A program made the translations under genes and the position numbers. DNA of 17,268 nucleotides from Campylobacterales bacterium (GTDB lineage: Bacteria > Campylobacterota > Campylobacteria > Campylobacterales > JACAEZ01): assembly GCA_013388565.1 (NCBI GenBank), contig JACAEZ010000006.1, forward strand, positions 1 through 17,268, written 5' to 3'. Below, piece after piece: positions 8,060-17,268 of this stretch. The first letter of the stretch is position 1; each line of letters starts with the position of its first letter. The notes beneath the pieces were generated by a model. The model was not told where the DNA came from, searched no databases, and saw only the letters and a list, made by a program, of their open reading frames with translations.

Positions 8060-9228
8060 TTTTTACCGTTTTTAATCATGGTTTTGCTAATTGATAAAAC
8101 CATACCAATACCAAAAGCTAAAGCCCAAAGAGAGCTACCACCATAACTCAAAAATGGAACCGCTATCCCTTTAACTGGTGTCAATCCTGAAATACCAAAT
8201 GAATTTATCAAAAATGAGAATGATATAAGCAGTGCCACACCCAAACAAAATAGAAAATAGACTTGATTTTGACTCCTATTTGCTATTTGGAATATTCTAA
8301 AAATTATAAAAAACATTGTCACTGTTACAAATAAAAGCCCAATAATTCCTGTCTCTTCAGCAATACCTGCTAATACAAAGTCTGTATGAACTTCACTTAA
8401 AAACCCTAGTTTAAATATACCATTTCCAACACCTGTACCAATAATTCCACCATTATATATGGCATTTAATGAGTGTGAAATTTGGTAAGGTTCTGGTGCA
8501 TCTTGAATTCGCAAATGTACAGCAACTGCTTCTGGAAATAGTGAAAGTACAAAATTTTGGATACTGCCCCACCAACTTTTTACCCTTAATATCCTATGTT
8601 CACTTGTTATAATAATAATCAAAGCTGCGAAAATTGCACTAATTATCAAAGAACCAAACAGTTTTATACTACTTCCAGCACTAAATAACATGATTGTCAA
8701 AGTCAAAGCTATTAAAACAATCTGTCCTAAGTCATTTTGCATAACAGCTATAAGAAGAATAACTATAAAAAACACGAATGCATAAGGAAGTATCAATTTA
8801 ACCTCTTCAAGCATTGTAATTTTTTTATTCAATGAAAATTTTCTTGAAAAGCTAAAAGCCAAAAAGAATATAAACCCTATTTTGAAAAACTCAACTGGTG
8901 CAATCGAAAGAGGTCCTAATCTTATCCATCTTTTTGCCCCACCAGCACTTGTAGCAAAACTTTCTGGTAAAAATGGCATAATAATCATACCCAATAATCC
9001 AAATGTCAAAAGCATAAATCCAACTTTTTTAATCATCTTATCAGGGTTTTGGATAGCTAAAATCCAAATAATACAAATAGCCAAAATACCAGCAAAAAGT
9101 TGTCTAATAAAAAAGTGATACCACTCATAATTTAAACTCAAAACAGAAAATGTTGAAAGTGAATATGATGATATTACACCTATCGTAATCAGTAATGAAA
9201 CAGCAAAAAATAGATACTTATCAACCAT
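8056..9228 (-). CDS. ftsW: FtsW/RodA/SpoVE-family peptidoglycan glycosyltransferase, FtsW-like
   Basis: SEDS-family septal glycan polymerase of 390 residues with about ten membrane segments, acting with a class B PBP at the division site. Conserved elements are visible: GGAKRWIRLGPLSIAPVEFFK (start at 96), QNDLG (164-168), GGIIGTGVGNG (260-270), HTDFVLAGIAEETG (281-294) and KGIAVPFLSYGGSSL (353-367). These fit FtsW better than RodA, which also belongs to this family. The ATG at 9228 follows the stop of the small flagellar-like gene by 8 bases. Its place in front of a transporter and a secretion cluster, rather than in a mur cluster, is notable but not rare in Campylobacterota. Confidence 0.9.
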   Translation of the reverse strand: MVDKYLFFAVSLLITIGVISSYSLSTFSVLSLNYEWYHFFIRQLFAGILAICIIWILAIQNPDKMIKKVGFMLLTFGLLGMIIMPFLPESFATSAGGAKRWIRLGPLSIAPVEFFKIGFIFFLAFSFSRKFSLNKKITMLEEVKLILPYAFVFFIVILLIAVMQNDLGQIVLIALTLTIMLFSAGSSIKLFGSLIISAIFAALIIIITSEHRILRVKSWWGSIQNFVLSLFPEAVAVHLRIQDAPEPYQISHSLNAIYNGGIIGTGVGNGIFKLGFLSEVHTDFVLAGIAEETGIIGLLFVTVTMFFIIFRIFQIANRSQNQVYFLFCLGVALLISFSFLINSFGISGLTPVKGIAVPFLSYGGSSLWALAFGIGMVLSISKTMIKNGKN

Positions 9229-10108: not shown

Positions 10109-12529
10109 CTACTCCTTTATCAAAGCTCTATTTAACACCTCGTCAATAGTTGAAACAGCGATAATTTCGAGATTTTGTTTTACCTCTTCTGGAATATCAT
10201 CTAAATCTCTTTCAAAATTTTTCTTAGGAATTAATACTTGTTTGATTTTTGCTTTATATGCAGCTATTAGTTTCTCTTTTAGCCCACCTATTGGTAACAC
10301 TTTTCCTGTAAGTGTAATCTCACCTGTCATGGCAACATCAGCTTTTACTTTTTGGTTTGACAAAATCGAAGCTATACATGTAGCCATCGTAATTCCAGCA
10401 CTAGGTCCATCTTTTGGAGTTGCACCTTCTGGTACATGGATATGCAAATCATATCTTTTATATATCTCACTTGCTTGTAGAGTTGTGTTTTCACTCTCCT
10501 CTTTTGCATTTTTTGGGATTAACTTTTCATCTATTTTTAGCTTATTCTCATCAATCAAAACCTTTACAACACTGTAAGCTATTTTTGAAGACTCTTTCAT
10601 AACGTCACCCAAACTTCCAGTTATTTGCACAACACCTTTGCCTTGGATTTTCACACTCTCTACTTTCAGCACATCACCACCGACAGATGTCCAAGCTAAG
10701 CCATTTACAACACCTACAACACTCTCTTTATCAATCTCATCAATTTCAAAAACCATCTTGTCTAAAAACTCTTTATAATTTTTCAACGAGATATTTATCT
10801 TTTTAGTTTCACTATTTTGCACTATCTGTTTTGCACATTTTCTAAAAACTTTTGCGATTTGTCGTCGAAGATTTCTAACACCAGCTTCTCTTGTATATTT
10901 TTCAATAACCTCTTTTAAGGCATCATCAGAGATTTTTATCTCCTCTTTTGTGAGTCCATGTCGCTTTAACTCTTGTGGAATTAGATACTTTTTGGCGATT
11001 TGAAACTTCTCTTGTGGAGTGTATGAGCTTACCATGATAATCTCCATTCTATCTCTAAGAGGTGTTGGAATAGAGCTAATATCGTTAGCAGTAGCTATAA
11101 AAATCACTTTGCTCAAATCAATATTAAAATTTACATAGTGGTCTCTAAATTTTTCATTTTGTTCAGGGTCAAGTATCTCTAAAAGTGCAGCCGTTGGGTC
11201 ACCTCTAAAACTTCTACCAACCTTATCTATCTCATCTAACACAACAACAGGGTTCATCTCTTTAGCATCTATAAGCCCTTGAATAATTCTCCCAGGCATT
11301 GCACCAATATAAGTTCTTCTATGACCTCTAAGCTCATTTACATCTTCAAGCCCACCAAGAGCAATTCTTACAAGTGACCTTTTTAAAGCTGTAGCGATAG
11401 AGTTTGCTAGTGAAGTCTTACCAACTCCTGGAGGTCCTGCAAAACACAAAATCGTACCTCTATCAGATTAATCAGATTTTCCTCTTAAATTTAAAAGCTC
11501 TCTTACTGCAAAAAATTCTACAATTCTCTCTTTTGCCTTTTCTAGTGAATAGTGGTCTTTATCAAGATGTTTTTGAACCTCTAAAATATCAAGTTTTTTA
11601 GTTGAATATTTGCCAAACGGAAGCTCTAAAACCCACTCAATATAGTTTTGAATTAAACTAGCATCTGCACTTTCTGGGTGCATTTTAGACAATCTATCAA
11701 TTTGTTTGGTTATCTCTTTTATCGCATCTTCATCTAAATATTTTTTGATTTTTTCTAGCTTTTTTCGATACTCTTCTATCTCTTCATCTCGTTGATTATC
11801 AATGCCTAACTCGTTTTGTATTTGTTTTAGTTGCTCTTTTAAAAAGTACTCTCGATTTACTTTTTCTATTTTTACATTTACTTTTGAACGAATTTCTTTT
11901 TGAAGTTTGCTAGATTCGATATTTTCAACTATCAAATCAATCAACATAAATAGTCTTAATTCGATATTTTCTTCAATAAATAGTCTGTAAGCTTGTTCTT
12001 TTTTTAGTTTTATGTAGCTTGATATAAGGTCTGCAATTCTATTTGGTTCATCATTTTCATCAATCGCTCTAATCAAATCTGGCGAAAATTGTTGATTTAT
12101 ATTTGAAAGATATTTTATTTTTTCTCTTAAAATATTTAAGATAGCTACCACTTTTGAACTATCATACTGTTTTGTGGTTATTAAATCAACAGTAGCTATT
12201 AAAGGATTTGTATCAACTTCATCAATAATTCTACCTTTTGCCAAACCTTGAAATAAAATTTTTATTCTACCATCAGGAAGTGTTACCTTTCTCATGATAG
12301 TGCCTATAACACCACTATTATATATAGTTTCAAAATCTCTTTGTCCTTCATGCTCCTCTTTTGAAGGTACTATCATGACCGTTTGATTGTGTTCTATGGC
12401 ATAATTTACTGCTTTTATATTTTTATCATCGCTCAAAAAAATAGGCGAAATCATAAATGGGTACAGAAAAAAATCATCTTCTACAATTATAGGTACATTA
12501 GAAGGGAATGAATATTCACTCAACGGCAT
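10109..12529 (-). pseudogene. lon: ATP-dependent protease Lon, interrupted by one in-frame ochre codon
   Basis: One frame of 806 sense-length codons runs from the ATG at 12529 (AAGGAT ribosome site) to the TAG at 10109, broken only by TAA at codon 354 (11470-11468). The parts are the N-terminal substrate domain (about 1-210) and a coiled-coil region (about 210-330), then the AAA module with Walker A GPPGVGKT (365-372) and Walker B VVVLDEID. The protease domain follows with the Ser-Lys dyad S710 (DGPSAG) and K753 (GGLKEK). The total length is normal for Lon. The stop falls in the linker just before Walker A, between two TCTGAT copies. A TTG at 11449 with AGAGG seven bases upstream could in principle restart translation, yielding a protein with AAA and protease parts but no N-domain. 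Either lon is inactive in this strain or the base is wrong. Confidence 0.9.
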
Positions 12530-14482: not shown

Positions 14483-14513
14483 AACACAAACTTTTTGAGT
14501 TTGTGTTTCTTTT
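14483..14513 (+). terminator. Rho-independent terminator after proC
   Basis: A perfect 10-base-pair stem (AACACAAACT at 14483-14492 with AGTTTGTGTT at 14498-14507) around a five-base loop, followed by TCTTTTT. It sits 32 bases past the proC stop and before a new promoter region, so it ends the fliW-proC transcript. Confidence 0.82.
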
Positions 14514-14595: not shown

Positions 14596-15297
14596 TTGAA
14601 AAAAAGTGTTACTACCAATATTAGCCCTATTTGGCTTGGCAAATGGAGATACATTTTCAACATCAAACATACAGTTAATGCATGGTATTGATTTTGATAA
14701 GGTTATAGGAAATCAAGTTGATGATAAGTTTAGTACATTGACTTATGAAAATTTTACTGCTTGGGAGTATGGAGACAACTATTTCTTTGCAGATTTTACT
14801 CATGCTACATTTAAAAATGACAAAAAATATGAGATTTATGCAGAACTTTCTCCTAGATTTAGCATTTCAAAAATATCAAATCAAAATTTGTCTGTTGGAA
14901 TTTTAAAAGATGTATATGTTGCTGGAACAGTAGAACAAGGTGATGGTTTTCAAAATAGACTTGGTGGTTTGAGTGTTGATTTGGATTTGCCATATTTTTC
15001 TATATTTTCAATAACTCAAACAGTTAGAAAAGATTATTTTGATGAAAAAAAGATATGCAAACGACACTTGTTTGGAAAATGCCTTTGAGTATAGAAAATT
15101 TTAATTTTTCATTTGAAGGTTTTGTTGACAAAACTTCACAAGATATAATATATCAGCCTCAAATATTGCTTGATATGGCATGTATTGGCATGAATAAAAA
15201 CAAAGTGTTTGCAGGTGTTGAGTTTTATGGATATAGACATGATGATTTAGATATTGCTGAATTTAAACCACAACTCATGATAAAAGCCGTCTGGTAA
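14596..15297 (+). pseudogene. Tsx/DUF5020-like outer-membrane channel protein, disrupted by two A-run length changes
   Basis: Outer-membrane beta-barrel resembling the nucleoside channel Tsx and DUF5020 proteins, about 233 residues if two one-base changes are undone. The N-terminus reads as a signal peptide (MKKVLLPILALFGLANG) only if the A-run at 14599-14605 is six rather than seven long; the TTG start then has an AAAGGG site at the right distance. Barrel-like strands follow (FTAWEYGDNYFFADFTHATF, SVGILKDVYVAGTVEQG). At 15045-15051 an eighth A would join DYFDEKKDMQTTLVWKMPLSIE, linking to the family-typical W-x-x-P-x-S-I strand and FEGFVD motif. The frame then runs to the TAA at 15297. As read, translation from TTG ends early; a GTG start at 14606 gives a 160-residue fragment without a basic signal-peptide start. 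It is followed four bases later by the sensor gene. Confidence 0.75.
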
Positions 15298-15301
15298 AAA
15301 C

Positions 15302-17268
15302 ATGCTTTTTAAAATCATCTGTTTAATAGCTTTTTTAACTATTTTTGCATTTGCAGATGAGTTAAAACATGTAAAATTACAACTTAGATGGTTACACCAA
15401 TTTCAATTTGCTGGTTATTACATGGCAGTTGAAAAAGGTTTTTATAAAGATATGGGGCTTGATGTTGAGATAATAGAGGGTTTTAAAAAACACTCTACAA
15501 CAGAGGTTTTAGAAAAAAGAGCAGATTTTGGTGTTGGAAATGCTGGAATTGTATATGAACGGTTAAACGGTAAGAAAGTAGTCTCATTAGCAACAGTTTT
15601 TCAACACTCTCCAAATATTTGGTTGATTAGAAAAGATTCTAATATCTCGTATATAGAGGATTTAATCGGCAAAAAGTTGATGATGACAAAAACAGATGAA
15701 AATATAGAACTACTTGCTATGTTTGTAAATGAAGGTATCCCTCTTGATAAATTAAATATCATAGAGAGTTCTTATAATTTAGATGATTTGATAGATAGAA
15801 AAGTTGATGCTTTTAATACTTACTATTCAAATGAACCATTTTTCTTAGAGCAAAAAGGTATAGAATATACTATCTTACAACCACATACTTACGGCATGGA
15901 TTTTTACAGTGATTGTCTATTTACATCTGAAGAGTTTTTAAATAAAAATCCAGAAGTTAAAAAAGTTTAGAGAAGCATCACTAAAAGGGTGGGAATATGC
16001 TCTAAATCATGTAAATGAAACCATAGATATTATTATGGAAAAATATAACACACAAAATAAAACAAAAGAACATCTATTATATGAAGCAAAAATCATAAAA
16101 GAGCTAACAATGCACCATGTAATAGAGATAGGACTTACAAATATCGGCAGATGGAAACACATAGCAGATACATTCGTCTCTTTTGGCATGGTAAAACCAG
16201 ACTATAATTTAGATGGTTTTATCTATAATCCAAACCCGCCTACAGATTATACACCTTTGAAAATTGCTTTGTCTATTATTGCAGTTATATTATTTTTGAC
16301 TATTTTTAACAATATCTCTACAAAAAGATTAAATACAAAATTAAAATCTGAAATAGAAGAAAAAGAGTTGGTACAAGAAGAGTTAAAAGCTATCAACGAA
16401 AATCTGGAAAATTTAGTAAAAGATGAGGTTGAAAAAAGATTTGAAGCAGAGATGATTTTTAGGGCTATTTTTGAAAACTCTCCAATAGGTATCGTTGTTA
16501 TAGATTTTAAAAATATGAAAATAAATCCAAATGGTACATTTTTAAAAATGTTAAAGTATGAGTTTGATGAAATATCACAAATGAATTTTTTAGATTTGGT
16601 ATGTCATGAAGATTTTACATCTTTAAAAGAAGATTTTGTTTTTTTGCTTGATAAAAAATATATAAGTATAAACAGACATATTTGCATGAACACAAAAGAT
16701 AAAGAGTTAATTGATTTAAATATTTATGCGAAAATTATAAAAAATGAGCATACTTTTGCAGATAAAATATTGGTTGTTTGTGAAGATATAACACAAAAGC
16801 TAAAAATAGAGCAAAAACAAAAAGAGCATGACATGATGATGTTTCAGCAAAGTAAGATGGCGATGATGGGTGAAATGATTGGTTCTATCGGTCATCAATG
16901 GAAACAACCATTAAATGTGTTGATACTCATGATAGTAGGTTTAAATTGTTCAAATCTTGATAACACTATTGATAATCAAAAAAATAGATAATTTTTGTAA
17001 AAAATCATCTCAATTGATAGAGTACATGTCTTCAACTATAAACGATTTTAGAAATTTTATATCTCCAAATAAAAGAATAGAAGAGTTTACTGTTTTAGAA
17101 GCTATTAAAAATACACTATTTTTAGTTGATTATAATTTTAATTTGTTAAATATCTTTGTAAATCTTGACAATATTGACAAAGATATTATTATAGTTGGCA
17201 ATAAAAATGAGTTTATACAAGTTTTGATAAATATTTTAAATAATGCAAAAGATGCAATATTAGAAAAA
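15302..17268 (+). pseudogene. NMT1-domain sensor histidine kinase, disrupted by two A-run length changes; 3' end cut by window edge
   Basis: Membrane sensor of at least 655 residues after two one-base corrections. The signal peptide occupies about 1-19. A periplasmic NMT1/THI5-like binding domain covers about 20-310 and begins LQLRWLHQFQFAGYYMAVEKG, the signature of pyrimidine-type binding proteins. One membrane segment lies at about 319-340, a coiled coil at 345-385 and a PAS domain at about 385-500. The kinase core has an H-box GSIGHQWKQPLN with H531 and an N-box NILNNAKDAI near 643-652. The G-boxes lie beyond the window. Lesion one is at the A-run 15959-15964 (six A; five restores VKKFREASLKGWEYAL). 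Lesion two is at 16978-16984 (seven A; six restores QKIDNFCKKSS and STINDFRNF). As read it yields a periplasmic-domain fragment ending at 15970. The ligand is unknown. Confidence 0.85.

Follow-up and report, generated by a model that had tools for sequence, protein, structure and literature searches.

Frame breaks in a Tsx-type channel and NMT1/THI5-like sensor gene pair of a Campylobacterales genome: recent decay or assembly error

What has happened to two adjacent genes whose reading frames change repeatedly within 2.7 kb, close to short runs of A? The question is raised by the end of a contig (C201) from the genome of an uncultured Campylobacterales bacterium, 1,411,770 bases in 238 contigs, with completeness 90.04 and contamination 2.92; the window analysed here is that whole contig, 17,268 bases long. 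Its gene order runs fliW, proC, a terminator-like hairpin, then a gene for a Tsx-type channel and a gene for a sensor (Table 1). Two terminator-like sites were found between 14300 and 15400, where shuffled sequence gives a mean of 0.3, and they are one hairpin seen on both strands. As relatives we drew 59 other genomes of the same order (Campylobacterales), every one of another family. An earlier note had ascribed all breaks in the operon to A-runs and offered four readings, namely on/off switching by slippage, decay, transcriptional slippage and read errors; in our analysis decay and read errors survive, whereas switching and transcriptional slippage fit badly.

Table 1. Features of the channel-sensor pair and its upstream flank (window positions)
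Feature	Positions	Strand	Remark
Terminator-like hairpin between proC and the pair	14483..14507	+	Consensus match only
A7 run at the channel gene start	14599..14605	+	Frame break only if the start codon lies upstream of the run
Tsx-type outer-membrane channel, first open piece	14606..15088	+	160 aa; PF03502 36.3 bits, cut-off 27.2
A7 run at the break within the channel gene	15045..15051	+	Possible stretch 15046-15088
Channel gene, second open piece	15055..15297	+	35.8% identity to the end of the L009 channel
Sensor gene, first open piece, NMT1/THI5-like domain	15302..15970	+	PF09084 148.3 bits, cut-off 20.5
Stretch with the first sensor break, includes A6 15959-15964	15942..15970	+	Two bases short by family spacing
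Sensor, second open piece: PAS, then phospho-acceptor region HQWKQPLN	16035..16991	+	Frame open from 15942
Stretch with the second sensor break, includes A7 16978-16984	16945..16991	+	One base over by family spacing
Sensor, third open piece: kinase core, cut by the contig end	16957..17268	+	Weak matches below cut-offs

All four A-runs were confirmed at the positions and lengths first reported. Translated alignment to relatives placed a frame change in the channel gene between 15013 and 15097 (1 supporting query) and two in the sensor gene, at about 15954-15988 (75 supporting queries) and about 16961-17008 (2 supporting queries). Homology thus backs three of the four breaks, but the first depends on the start codon that is chosen for the channel. 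The claim there was of one A too many. A GTG start at 14606 needs no break and leaves 16 residues before a conserved FST motif, compared with 16-17 in 8 relatives. On the other hand, AAGGG stands at a fitting distance before an upstream TTG and Lys-Lys would follow a TTG start, which argues for a break; the protein read from GTG 14606 is without the lysine that 8 relatives have near the start.

The stop-bounded stretches within which the frame must change are 92, 43, 29 and 47 nt long, and each holds an A-run of 6 or more. Counting A-runs of 5-7 inside each stretch, we put the chance that all four would hold one at about 7e-4, or about 0.007 for three stretches when the site in the NMT1/THI5-like domain is left aside. 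The proposal that every break lies in an A-run stands as a statement about nearness, and at 15959-15964 residue spacing argues against a plain change in run length. Because frame cannot tell one base over from two bases short, we used the spacing between conserved residues to fix the size of each break, with patterns that required the conserved residues and allowed 5-25 and 20-70 residues between them; relatives outside the patterns are uncounted. At the first sensor break the spacing is 64 nt, compared with 22 codons in 39/39 relatives matched, so the gene is two bases short there and does not have the single extra A that had been suggested. At the second, HQWKQPLN and DFRNF are both present in the sensor and lie 145 nt apart, compared with 48 codons in 11/11 kinases, which bears out one base over; 7 of these 11 are other kinases of the source genome. 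In the channel gene a break was found where one A too few had been reported, but the loop length differs from that of relatives, so spacing does not give the size of the change.

The first channel piece and the NMT1/THI5-like domain exceed their Pfam cut-offs (Table 1). The second channel piece has no Pfam match, and the NCBIfam Tsx model scores 24.9, far under its cut-off of 311; a search with the channel piece retrieved, besides the piece itself, a single protein at 35%. For the NMT1 domain the nearest named relatives, at 55-60% identity, come from Campylobacterales and Sulfuricurvum assemblies, which suggests an environmental Campylobacterales lineage. The last sensor piece, its core cut by the contig end, has no Pfam match and weak NCBIfam matches. 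A DNA search found no second copy of the pair elsewhere in the genome, and the NMT1 protein search gave 1 match in the source genome (G000). A plasmid search returned one distant match, in Arcobacter. RNA family models gave no match in the window at gathering score, and no riboswitch was found there.

Intact counterparts of the pair exist in other genomes. A Tsx match adjoins an NMT1 sensor in 8 of 10 Sulfuricurvum-type loci (L009-L018), with the sensor first, and the frames of L009, L010, L014 and L018 are open. These loci resemble the window in setting an NMT1/THI5-like sensor beside a Tsx-type channel as adjacent open reading frames. They differ in that the sensor comes first, is intact and ends in a GGDEF diguanylate cyclase (in L009 and L010, the two scanned), whereas in the window the channel comes first, the sensor carries PAS and kinase parts, and both genes are broken. 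The domain order of the window sensor is that of a Helicobacteraceae NMT1-PAS-histidine kinase (L033: NMT1, PAS, HisKA, HATPase), which has the family spacing of 48 codons in its kinase and, unlike the window sensor, is a single open frame of 753 aa. Passages of PMC7373994 describe a xanthine riboswitch that precedes NMT1/THI5-like genes as well as tsx genes and others, so a reasonable guess is that the intact pair deals with a purine-like ligand. Papers combining three of the terms NMT1, THI5-like, histidine kinase and Tsx included, by their titles and the openings of their abstracts, none on such a pair.

To set the breaks against the rest of the genome, we sampled 80 of its 238 contigs (491 kb). 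The first 20 contigs were mostly picked by kinase DNA matches, which over-represents sensory genes among them; the remaining 60 were taken by number. With tblastn the operon has 3 breaks, whereas the remainder of the sample predicts 0.05 for a length of 2.7 kb (P 2e-5; 0.0035 once the number of such stretches is allowed for). Before any were judged, frame switches with no start codon close by numbered 15 in the 491 kb (10 + 5) compared with 3 in 584 kb of two control genomes (1 in G001, 2 in G089; P 0.001), and all 3 control switches were judged by eye to be gene boundaries. Among the 15, one is the operon and seven were accepted by eye (L121, L125, L127, L177, L240 and two in L224), while those in L110, L113, L120, L170, L174, L227 and L254 were taken as gene boundaries, non-coding ends or unclear. 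Outside the operon, 9 breaks were accepted by eye in 489 kb: these seven, one in nuoL found by tblastn, and one in L257. The last came from a laxer list of switches without ATG and is without a fair control, the corresponding control lists (12 and 24 entries) being unread by eye. Weak tblastn calls in L120, L239 and the control locus L189 were left out. The claim that the breaks are concentrated in one operon is borne out locally, but genes on other contigs, on both strands, are also broken. Breaks are generally elevated in this genome, and the operon stands out above that background as a hot spot.

The sensitivity of these counts and their support differ by class. Of the simulated breaks, tblastn recovered 138/200 at conserved sites; the coding model under the no-start rule recovered 124/300 at accessory and 96/300 at conserved sites. 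Over the first 286 kb the coding-model detector raised 95 calls, of which many were adjacent genes. Pfam domains support both sides of the break in L127 only, one side in L125, L121, L257 and the first L224 break, and neither side in L240, in a scan that omitted L177 and the second L224 break. In-frame stops found by tblastn do not separate the genomes, at 22 sites in 286 kb of G000 compared with 15 in 184 kb of G001, mostly unreviewed. Judged stop codons before curation numbered 7 in 491 kb of G000; the control MAG had 3 in 184 kb, and G089 had none in 400 kb. Counted strictly, the contrast between conserved and accessory genes gave P 0.08-0.27 for 5 to 3 accessory breaks; a looser count, with P 0.02-0.08, took in breaks outside the measured class.

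Several of the other broken genes could be described individually. A sensor kinase (L125, on contig C219 at about 6740-4900, minus strand) has one frameshift and three in-frame stops, as read by eye, and is a clear pseudogene. In L224 (C26, at about 1622 and 3392) lie PDDEXK-type transposase-like and integrase-like remnants, both frame-broken, the integrase identified by eye. An outer-membrane efflux gene (L110, C5, 3233) has an in-frame TAA. The nuoL gene (L175, C180, about 8997-9007, minus strand) has a frameshift in a T-rich stretch. It has one full match in the genome, two further matches being paralogues at 27-28%. No other break was accepted across 153 kb of conserved coding sequence, at the tblastn sensitivity given above; the one in nuoL looks like an assembly error.

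We consider it most likely, though still tentatively, that both genes of the pair were recently inactivated and are decaying. The breaks would then be in the organism and not only in its assembly, and selection on the pair would have been lost recently. Several observations favour this reading. The two break sizes that could be fixed differ, one site being two bases short and another one base over, and misreading of a homopolymer does not usually change two bases. The breaks cluster in one gene pair, as would be expected after a gene has lost its function. Elsewhere in the genome the sensor kinase L125 is a clear pseudogene and the efflux gene L110 carries a stop, and intact relatives of both genes exist at the Sulfuricurvum-type loci. 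The excess of frame switches over the control genomes fits decay or error alike.

Recent decay could have proceeded by small steps. In an AT-rich genome with many A-runs and no detectable MutL domain, replication slippage would be frequent and other small indels would also arise; in the channel-sensor pair these may simply not have been removed by selection. The MutL domain (PF01119) was not found in the source genome and was found in 11 of 14 control genomes; a MutS N-terminal domain is present at C191, within an open frame 753 aa long. Slippage may be frequent if MutL is missing, which makes it a good source of breaks and not a reason to call a switch. Parts of PMC5133587 describe A-run slippage mutants in Campylobacter, the species studied there being without working mismatch repair. 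Blochmannia, as excerpts from PMC3017870 present it, is alike in having an AT-rich genome and A-run indels as first steps of gene erosion. It differs in that its tracts are of 9 or more and single in each gene, whereas in the window they are of 6-7, there are several per gene and one change is of two bases.

Some results count against decay. The pair has disabling changes and intact relatives elsewhere, as a pseudogene should, but neither worn sensor residues nor added stops were found in it; if the decay is recent, this is expected to be a weak test. Changes were seen at 0/34 conserved columns of the NMT1 piece and 0/14 of the middle piece, and the open pieces contain no in-frame stop, although substitutions in a decaying gene should introduce some. 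For the channel piece the figure is 31/63 changed columns, which is uninformative because its 8 relatives form one tight group. All the breaks fall within the final 2.7 kb of a contig from a fragmentary assembly, and nuoL, a single-copy housekeeping gene, is broken too. Judged stops before curation are no more frequent than in the control MAG, and the contrast between conserved and accessory genes is not significant on the strict count. If the breaks are nevertheless real, the lineage would be losing accessory genes by small indels, an instance of slippage-led decay outside insect symbionts.

The close rival to decay, and a quite plausible one, is that the genes are intact in the organism and that the consensus in the last 2.7 kb is poor, from low depth or from reads prone to homopolymer error. 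The position of the breaks at a contig end, in an assembly of 238 contigs that is 90% complete, is consistent with such an error, as are the break in nuoL despite its single copy, the intact conserved residues of the sensor and the A-runs held by every break stretch. Passages of a survey of frameshifted genes (PMC3711429) treat isolated homology-backed cases as mostly sequencing error. The two-base deficit within 15942-15970, however, argues against it. The contig also ends in a stretch common to other kinases of the same genome (29/29 final bases are matched at 97% in C145), which explains the end without low depth, and the gene with several stops elsewhere (L125) shows true decay in this genome. 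If the breaks are technical after all, the locus would illustrate that frame alone misleads, since residue spacing contradicts the homopolymer account at one site.

Whichever of decay and error is right, there is nothing unusual in such local clustering of small indels across the channel and sensor genes: it would be commonplace biology in the one case and commonplace error in the other. Switching by slippage, in which the A-runs would turn channel and sensor on and off as phase-variable genes, is poorly supported, and we regard it as very improbable. In its favour, each of the four breaks has an A-run at it or close by, the search for a MutL domain found none, and passages of PMC5133587 report that an 8-A tract in Campylobacter pgp1 varies from 7 to 9. 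That tract resembles the present case in belonging to the same order and in being a short A-run length change in a gene; as described there, however, pgp1 has one tract, a known phenotype and measured length mixtures, whereas the window has several sites in an assembled sequence. Phase-variable loci are marked by unusually long hypermutable tracts, and here A6 and A7 runs are common: 372 kb of sampled coding sequence holds 1037 A6, 377 A7, 107 A8 and 8 A9. None of the 22 relatives displayed has the run found at the NMT1 site, one break is two bases short, and several positions are off at once and would need joint correction. Campylobacter is said in parts of PMC8355987 to use G/C tracts, and G or C runs of 6 or more are absent in 168 kb of this genome. 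Slightly less probable again is the specific idea of a slippage-controlled module in which A-run changes in the genes for the Tsx channel and the NMT1 sensor turn the uptake of a purine-like nutrient, and its sensing, on and off; in this order the known mechanism is G/C tracts.

The last alternative, recoding, would have transcriptional slippage or ribosomal frameshifting restore the frames to yield full-length proteins. At the inner break of the channel gene, 15046-15052 reads A AAA AAG in phase with the gene, which we take to be the slippery heptamer of dnaX, and the direction of the shift would be right. Such restoration is nonetheless the least probable of the readings, because the heptamer fits 1/4 breaks, the runs are not conserved as a programmed site would be (at the NMT1 site in none of the 22 relatives displayed, and absent at the channel site in 8 relatives displayed), successive corrections would multiply to a small yield, the poly-A frameshifted Blochmannia genes thought to be rescued have tracts of 9 or more and one frameshift per gene in the excerpts from PMC3017870, and E. 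coli RNA polymerase slippage on poly-A was below detection in one test described in part of PMC6260861.

Two further genes of the window, both on the minus strand, are interrupted by stops. In a pilus-like cluster, a TPR gene has an in-frame TAG at 1450-1452 that divides it into pieces of 151 and 112 aa; among the matches listed, its relatives are mostly 200-340 aa in a single frame. The lon gene, which has a match in 145/149 genomes including the source genome, has an open frame of 452 aa compared with about 780-860 aa in most of the rows listed for the order. We rejected it as an additional frameshift: its break is an in-frame stop, at 11449-11470, within nine added bases that form an imperfect tandem duplication. 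The codon preceding this stop recurs, by chance or not, at the end of the duplication. Such codon recurrence resembles ribosome hopping, but here it is most likely just the duplication.
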